From contig LUZC01000099.1 of the NCBI GenBank assembly GCA_001603505.1, forward strand, positions 1 through 37,275: a stretch of 37,275 nucleotides of DNA, given 5' to 3'. The DNA comes from Bacteroidales bacterium Bact_11 (lineage in GTDB: Bacteria; Bacteroidota; Bacteroidia; Bacteroidales; UBA932). The notes beneath the pieces were generated by a model. That model was not told the origin of the DNA and made no database searches. It saw only the letters and a program-made list of their open reading frames with translations. Within the stretch, counting starts at the first letter, position 1. Each line of letters opens with the position of its first letter. Below, one piece after another: positions 19,028-31,886 of this stretch. A program made the translations under genes and the position numbers.

Positions 19028-20944
19028 TTATTTCACTTCTTCGTAGTCCACGTCTTCGGGGCCGTTGTTGTCGGAGCCTCCGTTCTGCGGGCCCTGCTGG
19101 CCGCCGAAGCCTGCACCCGGATCGGCCTGCGGACCTTGCTGCTGGGCAGCGCGGGCCATGTCTTCGCTGGCGGCATGCCAGGCGTTGTTCAGCGCCTCGG
19201 TGGCACGCTCGATGTCGGCGAGATTCTGGCTCTTGTGAGCCTCCTTTAGCTGGCCGAGGGCATTCTCGATGGCGCCCTTCTTGTCGGTCGGAATCTTGTC
19301 GCCATATTCCTTCAGGTTCTTCTCCGTCTGGAAGATCATGGCGTCGGCAGCGTTGATCTTGTCGATGCGCTCCTTCTCGGCCTTGTCGGCAGCCTCGTTG
19401 GCCTTCGCCTCGTCGCGCATCCGCTTGATCTCGTCTTCCGACAGGCCGGAAGAGGCCTCGATGCGGATCTTCTGCTCCTTGCCGGTGGCTTTGTCGCGGG
19501 CCGACACATTCAGGATGCCATTAGCATCGATGTCGAAGGACACTTCGATCTGCGGCACGCCACGAGGGGCCGGAGTGATGCCGTCGAGATTGAAGCGGCC
19601 GATGGTCTTGTTGTCTCGGGCCATCGAACGCTCGCCCTGCAGCACGTGGATCTCCACGCTCGGCTGATTGTCGGCAGCCGTCGAGAACACCTCGCTCTTG
19701 CGCGTAGGGATGGTGGTGTTGGCGTCGATGAGTTTCGTCATCACACCGCCGAGGGTTTCGATACCCAGCGAAAGCGGAGTGACGTCGAGCAGCAGCACGT
19801 CTTTCACGTCGCCGGCAAGGACACCGCCCTGGATGGCGGCACCGACTGCCACGACTTCGTCGGGGTTCACGCCCTTGTTGGGCGTCTTGCCAAAGAACTT
19901 CTCCACGATCTGCTGGACGGCGGGGATTCGGGTGGAACCGCCCACGAGCAGCACTTCGTCGATATCGGAGGTCTGCAGGCCGGCATCGCGCAGGGCCTTG
20001 CGGCACGGCTCGATAGTAGCCTGGATCAGGCTGTCGCAGAGCTGTTCGAACTTCGCGCGGGTCAGCGTCTTGACCAGGTGCTTCGGCACGCCGCCCACCG
20101 CCGTGATATACGGCAGGTTGATCTCGCTGGAACTCTGGTTGGAGAGCTCAATCTTCGCCTTTTCAGCGGCTTCCTTCAGGCGCTGGAGGGCCATCGGGTC
20201 CTGACGCAGGTCGATGCCGTTCTCGCTCTTGAATTCATCGGCCAGCCAGTCGATGATCTTGTGGTCGAAGTCGTCACCGCCCAGGTGCGTATCGCCGTTG
20301 GTGGACTTCACTTCGAAGACGCCGTCGCCGAGCTCCAGGATGGAGATATCGAACGTACCGCCACCGAGGTCGAACACGGCCACCTTCATGTCCTTGTTCT
20401 TCTTGTCGAGGCCGTAGGCCAGTGCGGCGGCCGTCGGCTCGTTGATGATTCGCTTCACGTTCAGGCCGGCGATTTCACCCGCCTCCTTGGTGGCCTGACG
20501 CTGCGAGTCGCTGAAGTAGGCCGGCACGGTGATGACGGCTTCCTTCACTTCCTGACCGAGGTAATCCTCGGCCGTCTTCTTCATTTTCTGCAGCACCATC
20601 GCGCTGATTTCCTGCGGGCTGTAGAGTTTGCCGTCGATATCCACGCGCGGGGTGTTGTTGTCGCCGCGAACCACCTTGTAGCTCACGCGCTCAGCTTCCT
20701 TCGTCACGCGGTCATAGGTCTCGCCCATGAAACGCTTGATCGAGAAGATGGTCTTCAGCGGGTTGGTGATGGCCTGACGCTTGGCCGGATCGCCGATCTT
20801 GCGCTCGCCGTTGTCGGCGAATGCCACGACGCTCGGCGTGGTGCGCTTGCCTTCGCTGTTGATGATGACGGTCGGCTCGTTGCCTTCCATGACCGCTACG
20901 CAAGAGTTCGTAGTTCCGAGGTCAATTCCAATAATTTTTGCCAT
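19028..20944 (-). CDS. dnaK: chaperone protein DnaK (Hsp70)
   Basis: 638 residues, a full-length Hsp70. It is the ATP-driven chaperone working with DnaJ and GrpE, neither of which is in this window. The ATPase domain shows [10 protein letters not shown] (residues 6-15), [31 protein letters not shown] and [10 protein letters not shown]. The interdomain linker is [15 protein letters not shown], followed by the substrate-binding beta domain with [14 protein letters not shown] and the helical lid. The C-terminus is Gly/Gln/Pro-rich and ends DVDYEEVK, as in Bacteroidales. The frame extends 17 codons upstream, but MAKIIG at 20944 is the family start and has a proper Shine-Dalgarno. Its leader carries a strong hairpin and a motif shared with htpG. 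Confidence 0.98.
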
Positions 20945-21009: not shown

Positions 21010-21021
21010 CCTATCATTTTA

Positions 21022-21061
21022 CGAAGATTGTGCCAGCCGCCGTAAACTGACATTGTGGCAG
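21022..21061 (-). promoter_or_regulatory. two-part chaperone motif upstream of dnaK
   Basis: On the minus strand CTGCCACAATGTCAG (21061-21047), an 11-nt spacer and TGGCACAATCTTCG (21035-21022). The first part is an imperfect 6-3-6 inverted repeat. The same two parts with the same 11-nt spacer lie upstream of htpG at 29940-29979. It is not CIRCE. The second part resembles a -24/-12 element but lacks the GC at -12. Likely the regulated promoter or operator. Confidence 0.6.
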
Positions 21062-21067
21062 AAATCC

Positions 21068-21082
21068 GGGCGATACACGCCC
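21068..21082 (-). terminator. weak hairpin after the fimbrial operon
   Basis: GGGCG and CGCCC form a 5-bp stem with a 5-nt loop, 3 nt after the stop of the last fimbrial gene. Only GGATTTCTG follows, so U-tract support is poor. It may slow read-through into dnaK. Confidence 0.35.
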
Positions 21083-21085
21083 TCG

Positions 21086-24000
21086 TCAAATCCTTCGGAC
21101 CCAGAATTGGCAGGAAGCGGTCAGTGTCTGGAGTGTCCCGTAGCGGTACGAAGAATAGTAGATGGAGAGTGTGTATGGGCCGCCCGGTTCGAACTCACCC
21201 ATATCGATGTCGTCGCCGGCCACATAGGTACGCCCGATTTCACTGACCGTATAATAATCCAATCCGCCCGCCTGCTCCACAACCGAGGTGCCGTCATTGA
21301 AAGATACCTTTCCACGCGGCTTGACGTTCTCGCTTGGGGCGTATTCCGTACCAAAGATTACTTCCAACGCCACGGCATATTTCGGGTAAAGCATCAGCGA
21401 GACAACCACTTCTTCGCCGCCATACGTCACCCGGAAAGAACTATCAGTTCCTGTCTCCGGGATGCTTGCCGCCACGCATGTGTACGCGTTCGCGGAGTGA
21501 GAGGTACCCCAGGCATATCCCCATCCGGCATCCGCCGTCACATCTTCATCCTCCCCGTAATCGTATCGGGCAAGACAGACAAAGGAAATCGTCTCACCAT
21601 AGGCCAGCGCGTTGGAAGGAGCTCCGGCACTGGCATACGCATCGGGGACATAGATCGACTGTAGGACCTTGCCCCTGACCGTAAGCGTCGAAGAGGCCGA
21701 GAGTCCCTGCGCCGCCGCCGGACCCGTTCCCGCATATACTGCCGTAACAGAAGTACTGCCGGACGCCGTGCTGCCATTGCATCCCGTGACCAGTCCCGCA
21801 TCCACAGTCGCGAGGGAGGTGTTCCCACTCGTCCAGAGGAATTCTTCAGGCGAAGATGTCACCGCCTCCCAATCGCCGCCGCTTCCGCTCAGGCGGCGCA
21901 GCAGCGTCGCCGTAAGCACCAGGCTGCCTCCCGCAGAGAGGGAAGCCTCCGTTGGATCAATTGTCACTTGGTAATCATACGATACAACAGGATCGTTCAC
22001 GGTCAGTTCCACACAGTCATCCATGGAAGCCGTCACCGTTCCGAATTCTCCCGAATAGCTGCCACCAATGCGCGTCGTGCCCGTCGCTAGCCCGGTGGCC
22101 GTTCTTGTCGAAGGATCGACCGATGCCACGCCAGAATCGCCCGTCGAAATCGAGGAAAGCGTTACCGGCGAGTCGGAAGGATCACCGGAAGGAAGACCGC
22201 CGACAAAGGCCTGCGTATAGAGGATGCCCGTATACTCGCCGGTCGTGGCACCCACGTCCACCGACGTGTCTCCTTGAATGACCAATCGTACATAGGCGTA
22301 GGACGACTCGCCCGCTTCGACGGTAATGTCGAGATAGGCACTCATTCCTCCATAGGAAGCCGTCATGCGGGCGACACCGGCTGAGATGCCTGTTACCTGT
22401 TGGTTCAAAGAACTGTACTCGGCTATCGTTGCGATGTCCGGATTCGAACTCCACCATTCGACGTCACTATTGTATAATAGATCAGAATCTCCGTTGGTAT
22501 AGATTGCCCGGCAACGAATGCGGGTCGTCTCTCCCACCGGGATCGTGGTGCGGTCCACTCCAGGCAAAACGGGTTCCACCTCCAGGTGATCAAGAATCAA
22601 CGGTTCTTCCTCGACCGTCGAGATAAATGCGTCATCGCAATACTCCGCTGAGAGTACGACGCCTTCGTACACCGCCCGATATAGTCCCAGTCCCACTTCC
22701 GAACCAGCCAATGCCGTGTTTCCGGAGAAGACGACGACATCGTCTCCGTACACGAGTTCATATCCTACGGGAGAAGCATCGGACACCTCTTCCCAATCGG
22801 TTTCGCCGAAGGGGCGACGCCACAAGGAAGCAGACATTTCAGCCGTTCCGGTGCCGGTGTACAGGATTTCATAGGATTCCCCGTTTGCACGGGTGATGGC
22901 CCTGTACTCATGGGAAGGAACGATCCGGATGCGCAAATCATCGGTTTTCCGTCCGTCGAGGGTACTGATCGTGGCCAAGCCAGTTACGGTCTCAGATGCC
23001 GCTTCTGCCGTGAAATACAGTGTTTCGGTCGAAGAGTCGACCGCTATGGCCTCCGTCCCGGATGAAGGTGTGACCTCGACTGTTCTACCGGCGTCGGTAA
23101 AGACACGTACCCCTGCTTGCAACAACCGCTCATCCACCGACAAACTATACGCCATCCCGACCGGTTGTTTCACCACCGGACCGGCCACTGCCCCTCCCTG
23201 CCTCAAAGACAACGACCCATCGGCCCATGACAGCCGACGGGTATCGGCATACGATCCCGCTTCAATCTTCCACAATGCGGTCGGCGTTCCTTCATCGGCC
23301 AACTGCAAAGCGGATTCGATGGCCGATTCCGTCAAGACCAGCGTCACAGTATGCGCCACGTTGCGTTCCACGTCGAAATTGGTCGTAGCATCCTTGCCCA
23401 GATAGCATCGATACGTAATCGGCACAGCCAGTCCGCTGCCGTCGGTCAACCCAACGGTTCCAGCAATCTCCACAAAGGAAGGATGAGCCCCGGCAGCAGC
23501 AATCGAGGCGGGTTTCTTATTCCATGCGTCTGTATTGCCCGGGAGCAGATTGCCATTCATATTTTCTGCGGCAAAGAAAGTCACGGCGGACCCCCTGTTC
23601 AAAGCTTTCACATCACCCGTCGATGCGGCATCCGTGGCAGTGACTACCCCCACGGCATTGCTGCCGGCAAATGCCCGTACGCTGGTAGGACCTTTGATCG
23701 ACACGGACGTAGCAGTAAATGAAAAGCCCGCATCCGCCGTTCCGGGATAGAGCGCGCTCTTGTCCAGAACGATATCTACCTTTCCCACCAGCCGCTTCAT
23801 GCGCACCGGCAGTACGGAACCTCCATGAATCTGCGCTGCCGTAAACCCGATTTCCGCTCCATGCCAGGCCATCGGCACTGCCGACAATTCCGTCATATCG
23901 ATGCCTGTAACCCGCCAGGACTCCATATCGGCAACCGTCGTCACACCCACGGTAAACTGTCCGCGGACATCACCGACGTTTGCGACGGCATACCATTCGT

Positions 24001-24292
24001 AGGAGCATCCTGCGATAACAGCGATATCGGTCATATCCGCACCCGAAGGTTGATAGTACTTCGCCGTCAGGACACCGCCCTCGAATTGCAGCAGGCACCA
24101 GTCAGCGATTTCGGCGGGATCGCCGGTAAATGCACTCTTCGCCCCGACCGATGAAGAATCTACCAGCGGGACAATCGACAGCCGACTTCCGACGCATACG
24201 ACGCCGTGGGCCTGTTCTTCCGTACACGAAATCGACAGGAAGGCCGCCAGCAGGACGGCCCCTGTCCAGAACCAAAGAAATGTTTTCATCAA
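21086..24292 (-). CDS. large Ig-repeat fimbrial tip-like lipoprotein
   Basis: 1068 residues, the last gene of the fimbrial operon. A lipoprotein signal ends FLSISC (cysteine 23). Residues about 24-330 look like a fimbrillin-type domain: VKALNRGSAVTFFAAENMNGN resembles the DUF4906/Mfa-like tip proteins. The remainder contains about five tandem immunoglobulin-like modules of the Big_2 type (for example VEWWSSNPDIATI...VTGISAGVARMTASYGG, and LWTSGNTSLATVDAGLVTG). By analogy with type V pili, such a long modular protein would sit at the fimbrial tip and act as an adhesin; this is inference from position and domains. It starts 8 nt after the FimB/Mfa2 gene. The downstream neighbour is dnaK. A shorter start at the second Met is equally possible. 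Confidence 0.78.
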   Translation of the reverse strand: MMKTFLWFWTGAVLLAAFLSISCTEEQAHGVVCVGSRLSIVPLVDSSSVGAKSAFTGDPAEIADWCLLQFEGGVLTAKYYQPSGADMTDIAVIAGCSYEWYAVANVGDVRGQFTVGVTTVADMESWRVTGIDMTELSAVPMAWHGAEIGFTAAQIHGGSVLPVRMKRLVGKVDIVLDKSALYPGTADAGFSFTATSVSIKGPTSVRAFAGSNAVGVVTATDAASTGDVKALNRGSAVTFFAAENMNGNLLPGNTDAWNKKPASIAAAGAHPSFVEIAGTVGLTDGSGLAVPITYRCYLGKDATTNFDVERNVAHTVTLVLTESAIESALQLADEGTPTALWKIEAGSYADTRRLSWADGSLSLRQGGAVAGPVVKQPVGMAYSLSVDERLLQAGVRVFTDAGRTVEVTPSSGTEAIAVDSSTETLYFTAEAASETVTGLATISTLDGRKTDDLRIRIVPSHEYRAITRANGESYEILYTGTGTAEMSASLWRRPFGETDWEEVSDASPVGYELVYGDDVVVFSGNTALAGSEVGLGLYRAVYEGVVLSAEYCDDAFISTVEEEPLILDHLEVEPVLPGVDRTTIPVGETTRIRCRAIYTNGDSDLLYNSDVEWWSSNPDIATIAEYSSLNQQVTGISAGVARMTASYGGMSAYLDITVEAGESSYAYVRLVIQGDTSVDVGATTGEYTGILYTQAFVGGLPSGDPSDSPVTLSSISTGDSGVASVDPSTRTATGLATGTTRIGGSYSGEFGTVTASMDDCVELTVNDPVVSYDYQVTIDPTEASLSAGGSLVLTATLLRRLSGSGGDWEAVTSSPEEFLWTSGNTSLATVDAGLVTGCNGSTASGSTSVTAVYAGTGPAAAQGLSASSTLTVRGKVLQSIYVPDAYASAGAPSNALAYGETISFVCLARYDYGEDEDVTADAGWGYAWGTSHSANAYTCVAASIPETGTDSSFRVTYGGEEVVVSLMLYPKYAVALEVIFGTEYAPSENVKPRGKVSFNDGTSVVEQAGGLDYYTVSEIGRTYVAGDDIDMGEFEPGGPYTLSIYYSSYRYGTLQTLTASCQFWVRRI

Positions 24293-24300
24293 ATGATAGT

Positions 24301-25116
24301 TTATCGGAATATGGCGGTCATGCCCACCTCGGTCCAGTCGGCCAGGCGTACATACGCAAGCATCGACGCAAAATCCACCCGCACCTCATAATCCGGAAGC
24401 GGATCCGCCTTGGTCAGAACCGTCATCGTGCGGCCGATCGGTACCGTGTAGAGCCGGTGGTACAAGTCACGGTCATATATTTCGAGCACCAGGCGGTCGT
24501 CAATCTGTCGGGGAATCCGGACGCGGAACCATCCGGACGCATCCGCATCCTGCACCGTGTAGAGATACTCCCCCGCCACGGCCACCCCGTCGCGCACATC
24601 CAGCCCGCACGAAGAACCCCGGATTACCAGGTTCCAGTTCCGAAGCAAGGAGCCACCCTGATTATCGGTAATAAATAGTGTAGAAAACTGCTTGACAGGG
24701 GTCAGGAGGCAATATGCCTCTTCTCCCGAACAGTCCACCTCCGAAACGTGCAGATACAGCGAGTCGGCCTGATTCCCGGGCGCATATACGATCCGTGTCC
24801 CGTCGGAGGTCCAGGGCAGCGAGTCGGAAGGAGAAACCACGGCCACGACTTTTGTCTGGTTGCGCGAGACGCGGTACTCGGCCGTAGAGGGACATTCATC
24901 CAGGGATTGCTCTCCCGACAGTTCCAGGCCTGGAGAAAACAGTTCCACCCGAACGAACCCCGCAGGATCCGCACCATGACCGCCTTGAAGGATGTACCGG
25001 TAATCCACATCCAGGTAGCACGGGCACTCCTTCCGGTCTTCCAGCACCGAACAGGACGCCGGCAGGACCATCAGGGCCCCGATCACAAATAAATACGCAT
25101 ATGACAAACGGTTCAT
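24301..25116 (-). CDS. FimB/Mfa2 family fimbrial anchor
   Basis: 271 residues, the usual size of FimB/Mfa2 proteins, which terminate and anchor type V fimbriae in the outer membrane. A lipoprotein signal ends VLPASC, followed at once by SVLEDRKECPCYLDVDY, the diagnostic N-terminus of the family (acidic-basic pair, then Cys-Pro-Cys). Two beta-sandwich transthyretin-like halves are expected; KQFSTLFITDNQGG and the late LTKADPLPDYEVRVDFASM fit this. It lies 19 nt downstream of the fimbrillin gene and 8 nt upstream of the tip-like gene, in the order seen in fimbrial operons of this type. No independent promoter is seen. The family assignment is good; polymer-length control is known from Porphyromonas relatives, not shown here. 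Confidence 0.86.
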   Translation of the reverse strand: MNRLSYAYLFVIGALMVLPASCSVLEDRKECPCYLDVDYRYILQGGHGADPAGFVRVELFSPGLELSGEQSLDECPSTAEYRVSRNQTKVVAVVSPSDSLPWTSDGTRIVYAPGNQADSLYLHVSEVDCSGEEAYCLLTPVKQFSTLFITDNQGGSLLRNWNLVIRGSSCGLDVRDGVAVAGEYLYTVQDADASGWFRVRIPRQIDDRLVLEIYDRDLYHRLYTVPIGRTMTVLTKADPLPDYEVRVDFASMLAYVRLADWTEVGMTAIFR

Positions 25117-25135
25117 GGTGCGGAAATATCACCCG

Positions 25136-26185
25136 TCAGATGGTCTCGTTGTATGCATCTCCGCCCGTCCAGGGGGCCACGGTGATGGTAGCGGAGATAT
25201 TGCCCTTTTCAACCGGCGTGTTCGGGTCATCCGATCCGGGGCCGGTGATGGTCAGCGTCACGTCGTAGGTATTGTTGCGTGCTATGTCCGGAATCGTAAC
25301 GGGATAGTAGTACGACCGGCTGTCGAACGAAGCCTTTACCACCAGGCGGACCGGGCCTTCGGTTGCGGCAGGACCCGTCACTGTCGAAGAATTGTTGTTG
25401 GGAAAACTGTAGAACCGGTAGTTCAGCGACACGGCACCTGCGCCGCTGGCCACGGACTGGCCGCAGGAATGGAAAGTCAGGTCCGCACAGGTCGCATCGG
25501 AAGCGGAAGCAATCACGGAGCCGCTTTTCCGGCCAGCCAGATTTCCCCAGCCCGTAGGCGTTCCACTTCCGCCCATCGTCCAGGAAGTCAACACGTTGGT
25601 CAACATCACATAGTCGATGGTCAGGCTTCCGAGCGCAGCGGCCATGCCGTTTGTCACACTCACCAGCCGTACACGTGAAGTATAGCGCGACATCGCCACA
25701 GAGAGCGTTGCCGGACTGGAAGCAGTATGTGTCGACGTGACCGTCACGATACCGCTGCCGTACATCCGGAATCCGGTAGTCGCCGTGGTGCTGTTGTCGC
25801 CTAGGGCGGCCGCCGTCGACTGCAGGGCAGTGATTGTTGAAACGGAGCTCAGATCGGACACATTGGCCACCGCGACCACTGTGTAGGAGCCCGCATTGAC
25901 ATTCTGGAAAGTCTGGGAATCGCCGGAGGTCAAAGAAGAGGAGGTGGCGTACCGGTAAAGATGTCCATCAGCATCGAACACGAGAATCTGAACACTGTTG
26001 AGCGCCGTTTCACAGGGTTCCGCATCCGTGCCGGAAGTCGCTTTTGTAGCGGCGTCGCTTTGAATGGTTACAGTGATTGCACCCTCCGCCAGGGTTGCTT
26101 TCTCGGGTTCCGCATCATTGCAGGAAGCCGTCATCAGCACCGCGGTGAGTGCTGCGGCCAGAAAAAGGAAAGATTGTCTTTTCAT
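25136..26185 (-). CDS. fimbrillin (FimA/Mfa1-like major subunit)
   Basis: 349 residues from the chosen ATG (MKRQSFLFLAAAL). The lipoprotein signal ends MTASC, as in all type V pilins, which reach the outer membrane as lipoproteins and are then cut by an extracellular trypsin-like protease to permit strand-exchange polymerisation. The N-terminal domain has EGAITVTIQSD and SVQILVFDADGHLYRY...FQNVNAGSYTVVAVANVSDL, the typical FimA-like beta pattern. The C-terminus, ISATITVAPWTGGD, matches the donor-strand end of the family and is mirrored by the preceding gene. Low charge, high Ser/Thr and the position before FimB/Mfa2 make this the probable main shaft subunit. The ORF can be extended 10 codons to 26215, but the signal peptide fixes the start. 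Confidence 0.84.
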   Translation of the reverse strand: MKRQSFLFLAAALTAVLMTASCNDAEPEKATLAEGAITVTIQSDAATKATSGTDAEPCETALNSVQILVFDADGHLYRYATSSSLTSGDSQTFQNVNAGSYTVVAVANVSDLSSVSTITALQSTAAALGDNSTTATTGFRMYGSGIVTVTSTHTASSPATLSVAMSRYTSRVRLVSVTNGMAAALGSLTIDYVMLTNVLTSWTMGGSGTPTGWGNLAGRKSGSVIASASDATCADLTFHSCGQSVASGAGAVSLNYRFYSFPNNNSSTVTGPAATEGPVRLVVKASFDSRSYYYPVTIPDIARNNTYDVTLTITGPGSDDPNTPVEKGNISATITVAPWTGGDAYNETI

Positions 26186-26219
26186 GTTGTATGTTTTTAT
26201 GTGAATGGTTCTCATGTCA

Positions 26220-27221
26220 TCATATTTCTACTTGCAGGCCCGTCCCGGCCGTCCATGGCGTAACCGACACGGTCACAGAAGCGAAGCAATGGTCACAGGG
26301 TATGTCTTCCGGGTGTTCCGTACCCAGATTCCGGATCGTAATATCGATGTGATAATGCGTATTGGAGACGACTTCGGGAATCGTCACAGGATAGTAGGTC
26401 ACTGTGGAATCGGCCTGTGCCTCCACCACCAGCCGCGTACAGCGTGTCGTCCAGAAGGAACGGTCGTGGCCATCTTCGCTGTCATTCGGGTAGGCATAGA
26501 GGGTCATGTCCGGCGCAAGGCTGTCCCGCCGTTGCATCTCGTGGTCGAGAGTTCCCTGGATAAGGTCGCCGGGTCCGTCAGCGGTACATTCCATCCGGTG
26601 GAACCAGGGGCCTTCCGGCAGCAGGCGTCCGGCCAGGGTAGCGGAACCGACTACATTGGTCAAGTACGCCGCCCGTACCCGGAACCGCCGGATGGGAACC
26701 AGGTCGTCAAAATCGGTATGCAGCGCAAAGGTCACTTTCGCTACAACGCGCCGCACTTCCACCGTGATCTTTTCGTCTTCCCTGACAAGGTGGTCCGTCA
26801 GTCCGCCGGCCATCACGAAACAACCCGGCGCATTGTCGGAGAGCAGCGTCACGTCCGCAAGCAGTTCCTCCCGCGTGGCATAGACGGCATCCAGCTGCGG
26901 ACCGTTCACCACCGCGAAGAAATCGTACGTCCCTTCAGCCAGCCATAGGTCATACACCCCGCTGTCGGAAAGGCAGCTTGTCAAGGCTTCTCCGGTATCG
27001 GAATGGAAAACGTACAGGCGGCTGAAGGCTACGGCATTCTCATCTTCCGGCGAAACACCCGCCGCTTTTACCACGGCCGTCGCGCCGGCCAGTGCCACCG
27101 ACACCGCATGCAATTCCAGCTCATCACCGCAATGACAATCGACGGGTCGGCACGAAACAGCCAACAGCGCAAGCAGCCAGCATTCCGTCAACACCGTGTT
27201 CCTAATCCCCGGCATCCGCAT
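26220..27221 (-). CDS. FimA-like accessory fimbrial lipoprotein
   Basis: 333 residues. A lipoprotein signal ends LLALLAVSC, followed by an unusual cluster of cysteines (CRPVDCHCG). The body has FSRLYVFHSDTGE, EGTYDFFAVVNG and RRVVAKVTFAL, the standard FimA/Mfa N-terminal-domain features, and a C-terminal half with YYPVTIPEVVSNTHYHIDITI. The end, VTVSVTPWTAGTG, closely resembles the end of the fimbrillin encoded just downstream, so the two are probably diverged paralogues. It could be a minor shaft or adaptor subunit between shaft and tip. It starts within the last 20 nt of the OmpA/TPR gene (an alternative ATG lies at 27215). Same operon, no own promoter seen. Confidence 0.78.
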   Translation of the reverse strand: MRMPGIRNTVLTECWLLALLAVSCRPVDCHCGDELELHAVSVALAGATAVVKAAGVSPEDENAVAFSRLYVFHSDTGEALTSCLSDSGVYDLWLAEGTYDFFAVVNGPQLDAVYATREELLADVTLLSDNAPGCFVMAGGLTDHLVREDEKITVEVRRVVAKVTFALHTDFDDLVPIRRFRVRAAYLTNVVGSATLAGRLLPEGPWFHRMECTADGPGDLIQGTLDHEMQRRDSLAPDMTLYAYPNDSEDGHDRSFWTTRCTRLVVEAQADSTVTYYPVTIPEVVSNTHYHIDITIRNLGTEHPEDIPCDHCFASVTVSVTPWTAGTGLQVEI

Positions 27222-29217
27222 GCGTCAGTCCCCCTTCCGCCAGATGGTTCAAATCATATTTCCGGATCAATGCGCTCACTTCCGGATCGAGATTGCCCCG
27301 GTGCACGAAAGCGCCGTTTTGCACACACGCGTGGAGATAGCACTCCACCGCGCCCGGATCGTTTCCCGCGCGGGCATAGAGCAGCGCGAGCATGTAGTTT
27401 ACCTCGGCGCTTCGGTCCAACTTCTCGAGGATGGCCAAAGCACTGGCATTGTAATCGAGGCAACAAAAGGCAATCGCCGTATTGAAATCGGCATACGGGC
27501 GCAGCAAGGTCAGCGCCCGTTCGTATTCCCGGTCGCGGATAGCCTGTACGCCAGCCATATAGGTAGTATCGAGAATCGTAGTATGCAGGGTATCCTGCTC
27601 CATGTCCTTGCGATGCAAACGGAAATCGAAGGCAACTGTCCGCAGCCGGGGATACAGTTCCCTGCTGATATAAGCGTAGGACGCATCCTTCCGCATGGAT
27701 TGCTCCCGGGCATCCGGATTCTCCTCCTCCCGACGGAGCCGATACTGGTTTTTGGCAGCGGCATTGAGCACGGTATCCCGGTCCACCAGTGCATCAAGCC
27801 CTTCCCAATTCTCAGGAACGGCATAGTTGCACAGCCGGATCTCCGGACGGGACCGGCGTTCCGGCTCGGCGAGCGTTCCATCCAGCGTCAGAAGGATTCC
27901 GGAGGCATGGTCCAGCGAGTCAGCACATTGCTTCAAACAGGCTGAAACGAAACGGCTCACGCTCCGTCCCCGCCGGCGTGACAAATCTCCGTTGGACCGC
28001 CACGAGCCTTCCGGAGAGGCGTGGGCGGTGACCACGATACTGTCGATTTCGTATTCTTCATTTTCCAAAAGGGCCGCCAACATCCGCCGGATGCGGCTGA
28101 TTTCCACTGCGTTGTCGCCCAGGTCTTCGCGCACGGCATCAGCGCCCGGGTCAAAGAGCAGGTGGGCCTCTGTCCGGACATCGACGCGGCGGGAGATTAC
28201 CTGGTCGAGATACCGCGGCCGTTCGTCCACAAAAGCGCTCAGGGAAGAAACGTAAAAAGTCAACGGCTCGCTTTCCGGCACCCGGTAGACCGTCTTGTCC
28301 TGCTCGCAGATTTCACCGGAAAGAAGGATGTCTACCTTCCGCAGTTTAGGCCTCGTGGCTATGGTCTGCACATAATTATACACGAACTCTCCTGCCTCGT
28401 TGACAATCAGTGTATCGAGCCGTAACTGCTCTGTCTGGAACGGAGCGCGCACATATTTCTGAAACATCCGGTCTTTGTCGCGGATTTTCCGTTCGTTGCG
28501 ACGAACCAGCAGGCCGTAGGTATAATGATCGACCGCCTGACGTTCCGTCACGCCATAGATCGATGCGAACTGGGCATCCGTCACCTCGGAGCTGTCGCGG
28601 CGCAGCGCATACAGTTCCGGGATATTCCGCTCGACAAAGATTTCCAGTTGGGTGCGGTCGATAAAACGCGTGGAGTCGGTGATGATTGATTGAAGGAAGC
28701 GCTCGTATTGCTGGTAGCCGCGCAACTGCGCCCTCCGGTATTCTTTTCCGGTAATCAGGATGTCATCGAGGGAAAGGGTATCGCCCAGCAGCGCCATCTC
28801 CGGATGGAAACGCACCTGCCAGCGACTGTCCTGCAATGCGGCCGGCACGATGACCTGGAACTCCAGTTCCACCCGTCCGTGACGCTCAGCTACATTCCTG
28901 AAGCGGGCGGTAACACGGGCCGCTTCAAGGGTCTCCGTAGCGACCATTTCCCCGCTCTCTTCATCGCGCACCGCGTTCATGATAATCACTTCCCTGCCCT
29001 GGAAATCGTGTACGACCACGCTGTCACGGGCCACCTGCGGCAAATCGATTTCCCTGAAAGAACGACTGTAGCGTTCCGGCAGTGCAAGGCGCGCCGAGAG
29101 TTGCTGCTCCCGCAAAAGTTCCGCCTTCCGCCAAGTTACACAAGCCGTAGGCAACACGACAAGCGGCAGGCAGGCAGCCAACGCACACACAATCCGTTTC
29201 AATTCTTTAAAACACAT
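27202..29217 (-). CDS. OmpA-like TPR lipoprotein of fimbrial operon
   Basis: 671 residues, of a type often found second in Bacteroidales fimbrial operons. The N-terminus is a signal with a cysteine at about residue 26 (VVLPTAC; the proline makes the lipobox atypical). A beta-rich region with YVQTIATRPKLRKVDILLSG follows. Around residues 350-415 is an OmpA-like module: ISRIRRMLAALL, then VVTAHASPEGSW, N-x-DLSRRRGRSV, which in relatives binds peptidoglycan. Residues about 555-650 read as TPR-like helices (AIRDREYERALTLLRPYAD, NYMLALLYARAGNDPGAVECYLHACV). A periplasmic scaffold coupling fimbriae to the cell wall is a plausible role, by inference. It overlaps the upstream DUF3575 gene by 11 nt and the next gene by 20 nt, so expression is coupled. 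Confidence 0.76.
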   Translation of the reverse strand: MCFKELKRIVCALAACLPLVVLPTACVTWRKAELLREQQLSARLALPERYSRSFREIDLPQVARDSVVVHDFQGREVIIMNAVRDEESGEMVATETLEAARVTARFRNVAERHGRVELEFQVIVPAALQDSRWQVRFHPEMALLGDTLSLDDILITGKEYRRAQLRGYQQYERFLQSIITDSTRFIDRTQLEIFVERNIPELYALRRDSSEVTDAQFASIYGVTERQAVDHYTYGLLVRRNERKIRDKDRMFQKYVRAPFQTEQLRLDTLIVNEAGEFVYNYVQTIATRPKLRKVDILLSGEICEQDKTVYRVPESEPLTFYVSSLSAFVDERPRYLDQVISRRVDVRTEAHLLFDPGADAVREDLGDNAVEISRIRRMLAALLENEEYEIDSIVVTAHASPEGSWRSNGDLSRRRGRSVSRFVSACLKQCADSLDHASGILLTLDGTLAEPERRSRPEIRLCNYAVPENWEGLDALVDRDTVLNAAAKNQYRLRREEENPDAREQSMRKDASYAYISRELYPRLRTVAFDFRLHRKDMEQDTLHTTILDTTYMAGVQAIRDREYERALTLLRPYADFNTAIAFCCLDYNASALAILEKLDRSAEVNYMLALLYARAGNDPGAVECYLHACVQNGAFVHRGNLDPEVSALIRKYDLNHLAEGGLTHADAGD

Positions 29218-29788
29218 AGGTCAATCCGATCCGTACATCATTGGAAGGCCAGATGAAACCCTTCCAAGCATTTCTTATGGGCGTTCCATCGGCAAATGTC
29301 AGTGTCCTGCCGCAGCGGGGACAACAGTACTGCGTATACCGAGACGCTCCGGCCCAGAACCCGAATCCCACGTCGAAATTCCAGTGACCCGACAGCATCC
29401 GGCTGTATCCAGCGCCGAAACCCAATCCACCGGCTCGTCCCTCTTCCGTTTTCTCAGCGATCAATCCGCCGCGGCTGTATTCTTCGCACTGGAGATTCAA
29501 GCCGAACCACCACGAGGAATACACGTTCCACGACCAGAAGCGCGCCCCGACCGAAGCCGTACGGGCCTTGTTCTGGAAGACCCTGCCTTTTTCGGCAGAA
29601 CCGTATTGCCAGGGATTGTAACGGATGCCCGCGTGCAGCGTGAGGTGACGGCTGGCCGAAATGCCGGCCTGCAGGTTGACCGTCCCAAGGTTTGCCCAGT
29701 CCAGCAGATTGGTGGAAACCGAGAATTTTTGGGCGGAAAGTGGTAGGGCCGTCCACAGGCAACATATCCAAACCAGGCAATGTTTCAT
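29207..29788 (-). CDS. DUF3575 family outer-membrane protein
   Basis: 193 residues. A signal peptide ends LPLSAQ, then KFSVSTNLLDWANLGTVNLQAGISASRHLTLHAGIRYNPW, the typical DUF3575 opening with alternating barrel strands. The middle has ARFWSWNVYSSWWFG and a glycine-rich strand, and YTQYCCPRCGRTL carries the CPxCG pair common in this family. The C-terminus, IWPSNDVRIGLTYVF, ends in Phe as outer-membrane barrels do. DUF3575 proteins head many Bacteroidales fimbrial operons and may be outer-membrane partners; the exact function is unknown. This is the first gene of the six-gene operon and its promoter lies just upstream, divergent from htpG. Confidence 0.86.
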   Translation of the reverse strand: MKHCLVWICCLWTALPLSAQKFSVSTNLLDWANLGTVNLQAGISASRHLTLHAGIRYNPWQYGSAEKGRVFQNKARTASVGARFWSWNVYSSWWFGLNLQCEEYSRGGLIAEKTEEGRAGGLGFGAGYSRMLSGHWNFDVGFGFWAGASRYTQYCCPRCGRTLTFADGTPIRNAWKGFIWPSNDVRIGLTYVF

Positions 29789-29789
29789 A

Positions 29790-29833
29790 GCGCCGCTGCG
29801 AGTTATTCGGTCACAAAACTATAGCGGCGGCGC
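29790..29833 (-). promoter_or_regulatory. fimbrial operon promoter with flanking inverted repeat
   Basis: On the minus strand TAGTTTTG (29821-29814) matches the -7 consensus TAnnTTTG, 25 nt before the DUF3575 ATG. A TTTC-rich tract lies where -33 would be, without a clean TTTG. Arms GCGCCGCT (29790-29797) and AGCGGCgGCGC (29823-29833) bracket the -7 box, so the box lies largely in the loop. It might be an operator or leader hairpin. Confidence 0.5.
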
Positions 29834-29939
29834 CCCGAAAAAAAACTCGGAGCGAAAGTTTCCAGCATCCCGTAAAAACACGTAGAAATGCGAATTCCAC
29901 ACCCCTGAATGGAGGTCCTGTACACCCGTTTCACGAGAA

Positions 29940-29979
29940 CTGACAAATTGTCGGCTCATTTCCGGTGGTATCTTTTTTG
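29940..29979 (+). promoter_or_regulatory. two-part chaperone motif upstream of htpG
   Basis: CTGACAAATTGTCGG (29940-29954), an 11-nt spacer, then TGGTATCTTTTTTG (29966-29979), 44 nt before the htpG ATG. It matches the dnaK upstream element in both parts and in exact spacing. The first part contains GACAA-A-TTGTC, a perfect inverted repeat. Likely a shared chaperone control element. Confidence 0.6.
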
Positions 29980-30023
29980 ATTTTAAGGGCGGCAGAAACG
30001 AAAAATATTAAAAAACCATAACT

Positions 30024-31886
30024 ATGACGAAAGGAAAAATTGGAGTGACCACGGAAAACATCTTTCCGGTCATCAAAAAATTCTTGTATTCCGACCACGA
30101 CATCTTCATGCGTGAGCTCGTGGCCAACGCGGTCGATGCGACGCAGAAGCTGAAAGCCCTTGCCGGGACCGGCGATTTCAAGGGCGAACTCGGCGACCTG
30201 ACCATCCGCATCGATGTCGACGACAAAGCCAAGACCATCAAGATTACCGACCGTGGCATCGGCATGACCGCCGAGGAGGTCGATAAATACATCAACCAGA
30301 TCGCCTTCTCCTCCGCCGGCGAATTCCTGGAGAAATACAAGGATAAGGCGGGCAGCATCATCGGCCATTTCGGTCTGGGCTTCTATTCTGCTTTCATGGT
30401 ATCGCAGAAAGTGCGCATCGAGACGCTCTCCTGGCAGGAAGGCGCTAAAGCCGTACGCTGGGAGTGCCAGGGCGAGCCTGATTTCACGATGAAGGAGATC
30501 GAACGCACGGAGCGCGGCACCACCATCACCCTGTTTCTCGACGCGGACAGCGAGGAATTCGCCCAGGAAGCCAAAGTCGGCGCGCTGTTGAACAAATACT
30601 GCAAGTTCATGCCGGTTCCCATCAGCATGGGCAAGCAGAAAGAGTGGAAGGACGGCAAGTATGTCGACACTGACAAGGACAACATCATCAACGACACCGA
30701 GCCCCTGTGGACCCGCAAGCCCAGCGAACTGAAAGACGAGGATTACCTCACCTTCTACAACAAGCTCTATCCGATGCAGGAGGATCCTCTCTTCCACATC
30801 CATCTCAACGTGGACTACCCGTTCAACCTCACCGGCATCCTTTACTTCCCGAAGATCAAAGACCGTCTCGAGGTCACGCGCAACAAGATCCAGCTCTACT
30901 GCAACCAGATGTTCGTCACCGACTCCGTGGAGAACATCGTGCCCGAGTTCCTGACCCTGCTGCACGGCGTCATCGACTCGCCCGACATCCCGCTGAATGT
31001 GTCGCGCAGCTACCTGCAGGAAGACGCCAACGTAAAGAAGATCTCGACCTACATCACCAAGAAGGTGGCCGACCGGCTCGAGGAGATCGCCAAGAACAAG
31101 AAGGAAGAATTCGAGCAGAAGTGGGACAACCTGAAGCTGTTCATCGAGTACGGCATGATCACCGACGAGAAGTTCTGCGAACGCGCGCTGAAGTTCGCCC
31201 TGCTGAAGAACACGGAGGGCTCCTATTTTAAATACGACGACTATGCCGAAAAAATCAAGGAGGCGCAGACCGACAAGAACAAGAAGACGGTGTACCTCTA
31301 TTGCACCGACCCGGTGGCGCAGTATGCGCAGATCGAGGCGGCCAAGGCGAAGGGCTATGACGTGCTGGTGTTCGACGGCCCGATCGATGCGCACTTCGTG
31401 AACCTGCTGGAGATGAAGCTCAAGGAGGCCACGTTCAAGCGCGTGGACGCCGAGGCGATCGACCGGCTGGTGGAGAAGGAAGAACGCACGAAGTTCGAGA
31501 TTTCGGACGACGATGCGAAGTATGTGACGGGCGTGTTCGAGGAGCTGCTGCCAAAGGAGAACAAATACGACGTGAAGGTGGAGAATCTGGGCGAATCGGT
31601 TGCCCCGATCCTCATCACGCAGAGCGAGTTCATGCGGCGTTATCGTGAGATGGCGGCACTGGGCGGCGGCATGAATTTCTATGGGGAACTGCCCGACTCC
31701 TACAACATCGCTGTCAACGCGGAGAACCCTGTGATCAAGAAGATTATGGGCGAGACTGGCGTGAAGGCCCTCACGGCCGACAACACGCTGCTCCAGCAGG
31801 TGACCGACCTGGCCCTCCTGGCGAACGGCATGCTGAAGGGCAAGGCTCTCGCCGACTTCATCAAGCGGAGCGAAGAGCTACTATAA
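30024..31886 (+). CDS. htpG: chaperone protein HtpG (Hsp90)
   Basis: 620 residues, the bacterial Hsp90, an ATP-dependent dimeric cytoplasmic chaperone. The N-terminal GHKL ATPase site shows FMRELVANAVDATQK (catalytic Glu and Mg-binding Asn), ITDRGIGMT and GHFGLGFYSAFMV. The middle domain has EPLWTRKPSEL...YPMQEDPLFHIHLNVDYPFNLTGILYFP and the ATP-contact NVSRSYLQED. The C-terminal dimerisation domain is present. The sequence is slightly shorter than many Bacteroidota HtpG proteins but nothing obvious is missing. No Shine-Dalgarno is seen before the ATG (an A-rich leader instead). It is divergent from the fimbrial operon and shares the dnaK-type upstream motif. A cloverleaf-like inverted repeat follows its stop by 18 nt. 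Confidence 0.97.
   Translation: MTKGKIGVTTENIFPVIKKFLYSDHDIFMRELVANAVDATQKLKALAGTGDFKGELGDLTIRIDVDDKAKTIKITDRGIGMTAEEVDKYINQIAFSSAGEFLEKYKDKAGSIIGHFGLGFYSAFMVSQKVRIETLSWQEGAKAVRWECQGEPDFTMKEIERTERGTTITLFLDADSEEFAQEAKVGALLNKYCKFMPVPISMGKQKEWKDGKYVDTDKDNIINDTEPLWTRKPSELKDEDYLTFYNKLYPMQEDPLFHIHLNVDYPFNLTGILYFPKIKDRLEVTRNKIQLYCNQMFVTDSVENIVPEFLTLLHGVIDSPDIPLNVSRSYLQEDANVKKISTYITKKVADRLEEIAKNKKEEFEQKWDNLKLFIEYGMITDEKFCERALKFALLKNTEGSYFKYDDYAEKIKEAQTDKNKKTVYLYCTDPVAQYAQIEAAKAKGYDVLVFDGPIDAHFVNLLEMKLKEATFKRVDAEAIDRLVEKEERTKFEISDDDAKYVTGVFEELLPKENKYDVKVENLGESVAPILITQSEFMRRYREMAALGGGMNFYGELPDSYNIAVNAENPVIKKIMGETGVKALTADNTLLQQVTDLALLANGMLKGKALADFIKRSEELL

Follow-up and report, generated by a model that had tools for sequence, protein, structure and literature searches.

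Why should two chaperone genes on opposite strands of one contig, dnaK and htpG, be preceded by the same two-part DNA element with the same internal spacing? The window analysed here is the whole of a 37,275-nt stretch (contig LUZC01000099.1, positions 1 to 37,275) from the draft genome of Bacteroidales bacterium Bact_11 (GCA_001603505.1), a draft of 1.88 Mb that is 81% complete. A first-pass annotation of this DNA had placed the element correctly: on the minus strand before dnaK, an inverted repeat CTGCCACAATGTCAG (21061-21047), a gap of 11 nt and then TGGCACAATCTTCG (21035-21022); on the plus strand before htpG, CTGACAAATTGTCGG (29940-29954), 11 nt and then TGGTATCTTTTTTG (29966-29979). The two elements are linked to heat-shock genes in many families, the first keeps a 10.5-bp phase with the second, and both rpoN and a type of sigma-54 activator that we call group B are present. 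From sequence comparisons, we consider it probable that the phased palindromic box is read by this conserved activator at sigma-54 promoters of the chaperone genes. Loci are identified below by L numbers and genomes by G numbers, G000 being the Bact_11 genome itself.

In the window the composite CTGNCA-N3-TGTCRG-N11-TGG occurs exactly twice, and it appears in none of 400 first-order Markov windows. When up to two mismatches are allowed there are three matches against a shuffle mean of 0.56, a count also reached by 3 of 100 shuffles. The exact palindrome alone is found at three sites in the draft genome, two of which are the dnaK and htpG sites of the window. Both boxes (21047..21061 on the minus strand, with equivalents in other families, and 29940..29954 on the plus strand) are centred at about −45 from the predicted transcription start. 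Next to the dnaK box lies the putative promoter TGGCACAATCTTCGT (21021..21035, minus strand), with a predicted start at about 21009, ahead of a 638-residue coding region (19028..20944, ATG at 20944); next to the htpG box lies TGGTATCTTTTTTGA (29966..29980, plus strand), with a predicted start at about 29992, ahead of a 620-residue coding region (30024..31886). Both predicted starts are placed 12 nt beyond the −12 element.

What is the second element? It fits a promoter of the −24/−12 class, as recognised by sigma-54 (RpoN). Both window promoters have GG at −25/−24 and G at −13 at fixed spacing within the frame TGGYAY-N6-YG. The −12 half had been described as missing, which holds only for the C at −12, since the −13 G sits at sigma-54 spacing in both genes. 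Among 79 htpG loci from public contigs (80 were collected, and L075 was dropped for missing upstream DNA), the best box is TGG[ACT]A[CT]-N6-TG in 63, and 73 pass a looser score that the other six do not reach. Examples are TGGAACATATTTTGA in several Candidatus Cryptobacteroides contigs (L090, L106, L118, L131, L135) and TGGTATGTATTTTG in an Alistipes contig (L138). For dnaK, the best 30 loci of 143 genomes with a dnaK match include 29 with GGCAY-N6-YG, one of them (L325) with its first T changed to C; the thirtieth, L329, reads TGGTATAGTGATTGT. The −24/−12 spacing thus fits GG and G across loci, with the C at −12 often absent. The gene for sigma-54 itself, rpoN, is present in 56 of 61 genomes, that of Bact_11 included (G000 C12:33281-33757, E 1.1e-52).

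The same regions might instead be housekeeping-sigma promoters (TTTG / TAnnTTTG), the palindrome being no more than the terminator hairpin of the preceding gene. The second element does often end in TTTG, and the repeat of some genomes forms a perfect hairpin with T-runs after it. By eye, however, it is GG-N10-G that is conserved and not TA at −7, and a terminator would not hold helical register with a −24 box. The accessible text of PMC9723704 moreover reports transcription starts at these genes in Flavobacterium psychrophilum that have a sigma-54 motif, leaving the housekeeping explanation scarcely credible. The sigma-54 reading agrees both with these mapped starts and with promoter predictions for Bacteroidota (PMC12316311, accessible text). 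It follows that the switch, which the first-pass annotation took to be unrecognised, is not new in its promoter part, a sigma-54 class having already been reported and predicted in those two papers.

How far does the composite extend beyond the window? At the level of the genus (the Bact_11 genome and 60 relatives), TGNCA-N3-TGTCRG-N11-TGG gives 40 matches, whereas the reversed pattern gives 7. Thirty of these 40 sites were examined and 26 precede htpG, dnaK, groES, grpE or clpB, the exceptions being L029, L035, L043 and L058; targets were named by eye, apart from grpE in L033 and a clpB fragment in L041 (NCBIfam) and L046 (AAA and lid domains). Elsewhere in the Bact_11 genome the groES gene (L245) has a box, 13 nt and then TGGCACTTAATTTGC, with C at −12, and an hsp20-like gene (L291) has a box, 12 nt and then TGG...TTTGC. 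Eleven palindromes with one mismatch were inspected in this genome and only that at the hsp20 site has a composite-compatible neighbouring box; another lies 6 nt before the start of lon (identified by Pfam), where no sigma-54 box of the matching orientation is convincing.

Across the class, in 295 Bacteroidia genomes, TGNCA-N3-TGNCA-N12-TGGNAY-N6-YG has 95 matches, in 89 genomes, against a single control match. The genes downstream, the window's dnaK included, are htpG (59), dnaK (10), lon (7), hsp20 (4), trxA (3), groES/EL (2), clpP (2), lemA (2) and a DnaJ-type gene (1), so that 85 of the 95 matches precede chaperones or the proteases Lon and ClpP. Those that remain comprise one site before an open reading frame (ORF) followed by secA, one before a 106-residue ORF of unknown function (L436), two cut by contig ends (L421, L428) and one inside coding sequence (L431). 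Target names were assigned by sequence motif or by eye, five of the dnaK genes by coordinates; Pfam confirmed 2 of 7 lon, 1 of 4 hsp20, 1 of 3 trxA, 1 of 2 clpP and 1 of 2 lemA genes, and the DnaJ-type gene. In a sample of the phylum (118 genomes, no control matches) the composite is found in 17 of 29 genomes of the class and in 2 of 89 others, these two lying before an Hsp20 gene (L452) and a ClpB-type gene (L453). Enrichment before other chaperone genes and conservation in relatives, two checks that the first-pass annotation had called for, are both borne out by the genus and class scans. Its proposal of a chaperone regulon in this lineage stands as to the regulon; the limit to the lineage falls away, as the switch recurs in many families of the class.

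Some features seen at these loci deserve separate mention. The promoter of the hsp20-like gene (L291:1474-1530, contig C47 of the Bact_11 genome) is preceded by two palindromic boxes in tandem. A box lies directly upstream of clpB in two relatives, L041 and L046. The clpB reading frame in L041 (1677-2063) appears to begin near position 151 of the ClpB model, and that in L046 (317-1756) has the same start by eye and no Clp_N domain in Pfam; for these reasons ClpB in this genus may lack its N-terminal domain. Near secA, two genus loci (L043, L058) have a box without a good −24/−12 box, and the site of the class scan noted above precedes an ORF and then a secA-like gene that is just under the Pfam cut-off (L417); the box may have a different use there, or be present by chance. 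The composites before thioredoxin (L368, L442, L443), LemA-like (L404, L409) and ClpP (L433, L434) genes in some families make a wider regulon membership possible. The groEL of Bact_11 (G000:C79:1784-3412, L245) has an internal TAA, likely an assembly or sequencing error in the draft. Finally, many genomes have terminator-like hairpins ahead of groES (TGTCAGNNTGTCA...CTGACATTTTTT); initially read as the box, they are probably a separate feature.

Is the first element an operator, as the first-pass annotation had supposed, or an activator site? The evidence is its position relative to the −24 box. Outside the genus, TGNCA half-sites in 43 groES and 29 dnaK promoters peak at distances of 12, 20, 22, 30-31 and 52 nt from the TGG downstream and are absent at 14-18 and 24-29 nt. 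A wider set of 93 groES and dnaK promoters from 41 families other than that of Bact_11, 92 of which were scored, was searched for palindromes with at most one mismatch within 62 nt of the −24 box (left out were seven groES loci without a found start, the dnaK locus L359, also without a start, and the dnaK locus L355, with a low sigma-54 score). Palindromes are carried by 48 of these promoters and fall at offsets of 12-14, 20-23, 31-34, 43-45 and 52-55 nt, and once each at 48 and 61 nt. The best period is 10.5 bp (R 0.795 over 49 deduplicated offsets), a strength equalled by none of 20,000 random sets; the Rayleigh p of about 4e-14 is only a guide, because genomes within one family are related, and the gaps between the peaks are plain all the same. 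Phasing is present for each gene taken singly (groES, R 0.77, n=28; dnaK, R 0.86, n=27), at offsets up to 40 nt (groES, R 0.88, n=19; dnaK, R 0.85, n=18) and, for dnaK, beyond 40 nt (R 0.89, n=9). With the 13 closest loci set aside, 58 htpG promoters were scored (8 of 66 were under the score in this set): 46 have a box 11-13 or 22-23 nt away (shuffle mean 0.09) and a further 10 have one at 1 nt, making 56 in all. The exact 11-nt spacer therefore holds for both window genes and fails as a fixed rule, since the spacing moves in whole helical turns.

A spacing that shifts by whole turns favours an activator site over a plain operator, and the 10.5-bp register with the −24 box is as expected of a protein that touches polymerase. 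Like an enhancer, the palindrome lies upstream of −24 on a fixed helical face. Enhancers of sigma-54 promoters generally act from a looping distance of some 80-150 bp, however, and in this respect the box differs, being centred at about −45 in the window and elsewhere lying mostly 1-55 nt from the −24 box in the 62-nt scan. This closeness is what might be expected if a repressor were to bind the box and block sigma-54 polymerase, with a different activator acting from solution or from elsewhere, and the ten htpG promoters with a box only 1 nt from −24 speak for such an arrangement, as does the report that RprY of Porphyromonas gingivalis binds the promoters of groES, clpB and dnaK, apparently as a repressor (PMC3646045, accessible text). 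The helical phasing is less expected of a blocking protein, and in the same text RprY does not bind the htpG promoter, yet htpG is the commonest target here; this speaks against RprY as the reader of the box, and the words motif, consensus and binding site are absent from the part of PMC3646045 available. The CIRCE operator of HrcA, TTAGCACTC-N9-GAGTGCTAA, has no match in the window at up to three mismatches and its core is absent from 453 loci, so that the first-pass annotation was right to set it aside and CIRCE/HrcA can be rejected. A repressor-operator arrangement is, we believe, quite unlikely. What survives of the proposed operator plus alternative promoter is a palindromic protein-binding site plus an alternative promoter, the site being better seen as that of an activator.

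Which activator, then, reads the box? The Bact_11 genome encodes at least three sigma-54 activators: group A, with a receiver and an AAA domain and no helix-turn-helix (HTH); group B, with an AAA domain and a Fis-type HTH and no receiver; and group C, with receiver, AAA domain and HTH. The group B protein of Bact_11 (L179) has the AAA+ sigma-54 interaction domain and Fis-type HTH (Pfam), the loop GSFTGA and a Walker A motif. Pfam finds the same combination of AAA+ with HTH_8 and no receiver in the copies of Bact_11, G057, G085 and G207. The loop is GAFTGA or GSFTGA in 11 of 13 copies and GAFTSA or GSFTSA in two, and Walker A is recognised in 12 of 13; identity with 11 others is 45-65%, and the helix SERTLYRKI is invariant in all 12 aligned. 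In G057, group B is the enhancer-binding protein (EBP) at the head of the cluster EBP-lptE-TPR-secG-groES-groEL (TPR, a tetratricopeptide repeat gene; lptE and secG by Pfam), and in G079 it is in a similar cluster with groES. Judged by coordinates, 8 of 18 genomes (G076, G079, G100, G118, G155, G161, G183, G194) have an activator no more than 5 kb from groEL, and in G079, G194 and G100 this neighbour was read as group B. Genes resembling miaB lie upstream of group B in G190, G194, G207 and G085 (by eye, with matching Pfam domains for that of G085).

Group C, or a mixed complex with group A, could also be imagined on the box, given that Bact_11 encodes all three types and that group A of G057 has just two genes between it and dnaJ-grpE. 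This is unlikely in our judgement. G079, G190 and G194 each have only two activators (E ≤ 1e-40), A and B, of which B alone has an HTH, and exact composites nevertheless persist in G079 and G194 (htpG) and in G190 (dnaK); a reduced genome, G085, retains B alone. Group A is itself conserved (L177:5804-7066, L180, L184, L188, L191, L195, L298, L301, L303); it lacks a DNA-binding domain, the HTH being absent by Pfam in L177, L298, L301 and L303 and by eye in the others. That it is group B that binds the box is thus likely, as judged from gene content, domains and context.

Several observations weigh against group B as reader of a phased box at sigma-54 promoters. The C at −12 (TTGC) is replaced in both window promoters, by T in dnaK and by A in htpG; pspA of E. 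coli, which has T at this position, is a known exception. No box (at most one mismatch, within 62 nt) is found in 44 of the 92 scored groES and dnaK promoters, the two main positions, 11-13 and 22-23 nt, are occupied in only 13 of 45 groES and 14 of 47 dnaK promoters (shuffle means 0.06 and 0.05), and beyond 40 nt the phasing for groES is weak (R 0.53, n=9). The group B helix resembles those of other NtrC-family activators. Bact_11 has its group C protein (L178) and a further four weaker PF00158 matches, the group B copy of G207 (L305) has a GAFTSA loop and no match to the Walker A pattern, and in 10 of 18 genomes no activator was seen within 5 kb of groEL. In G085 there is no exact composite, boxes are not recognisable and the activator loop is GSFTSA.

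On the reading that we prefer, group B at a phased box, each chaperone gene would be transcribed from a sigma-54 promoter of the form TGGYAY-N6-YG, and a palindromic enhancer box, CTGNCA-N3-TGNCAG, would lie just ahead of it in helical register with −24. The box would be bound by group B, whose gene lies near groESL in some Bacteroidia and whose product joins an AAA+ ATPase domain to a Fis-type HTH, with no receiver at the N-terminus. From a position beside the holoenzyme and on a constant face of the DNA, group B could contact sigma-54 directly instead of through a long loop, and its hydrolysis of ATP would open the promoter. Heat or unfolded protein might release group B from an inhibitor, for which the chaperones themselves are candidates; this last step is a guess by likeness to PspF, which is held by PspA.

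The reduced genome G085 (490 kb in a single contig, 93% complete, with 23% GC at the activator locus, and the only genome of its family) bears on what such a system may be for. It retains rpoN and a single activator, group B. TGGCAY-N6-TG occurs at 12 sites, against 2 in the control, and the only two outside ORFs are before dnaK and groES; the other ten are inside ORFs of at least 150 residues, two of them in identical, partly masked, rRNA-like stretches. A broader proposal is that a dedicated group B activator on a promoter-proximal phased enhancer runs heat shock in Bacteroidia, in the role that sigma-32 or HrcA has elsewhere, and that the need for chaperones is why several reduced Bacteroidota endosymbionts retain rpoN. 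For this the balance appears to us even. Against the endosymbiont part, the accessible text of PMC3971599 has rpoN in three of four compared endosymbionts, the fourth, by elimination Sulcia, being without it, and Sulcia expresses groESL and dnaK highly (PMC5592932, accessible text), so that chaperones can evidently stay on without RpoN. The retention of RpoN as one of only two sigma factors was called unusual in PMC3971599, and in the part available was linked to nitrogen.

That many families of the class have this one switch at their heat-shock genes suggests a single conserved activator, a candidate regulator of the heat-shock response. Neither the phased palindrome nor a named heat-shock activator for Bacteroidia was found in the literature searched, which included few subscription journals. 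Bacteroidia are a main group of gut bacteria, and their heat-shock genes can now be given a promoter class, a DNA box and a candidate protein. If chaperone control is indeed the function, the retention of RpoN by some reduced Bacteroidota endosymbionts would have an explanation; and structural studies would meet an unusual geometry in a sigma-54 enhancer so near its promoter.

How does this arrangement compare with known systems? In F. psychrophilum the mapped starts of groESL, dnaK, grpE-dnaJ, htpG, clpB and lon have sigma-54 (SM4) motifs, which are thus of the same −24/−12 class and at largely the same genes as here; unlike here, no upstream box or activator is named in the accessible text of that study, which does record three proteins with a sigma-54 interaction domain and suggests that co-expression clusters might match distinct activators (PMC9723704). 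The aRpoNDB resource likewise finds sigma-54 promoters enriched at Bacteroidota GroEL, GroES, GrpE, DnaJ, DnaK, IbpA and HSP90 families, but at the promoter level only, with no enhancer box or phasing in the part available (PMC12316311). In the same text, a statement on sigma-54 at GrpE and GroES of Bacteroides thetaiotaomicron cites reference 80, a paper on the Blattabacterium genome, perhaps by mistake. CIRCE/HrcA resembles the present system in having an inverted repeat before chaperone genes, and differs in the sequence and spacing of that repeat. Group B itself resembles PspF, the phage-shock activator, which it matches in sequence over the AAA+ region and which also combines AAA+ with an HTH and no receiver. 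The phage-shock PspF family model, however, is matched by group B only well below its cut-off, the targets differ, and the enhancers of PspF lie farther upstream than the box described here.

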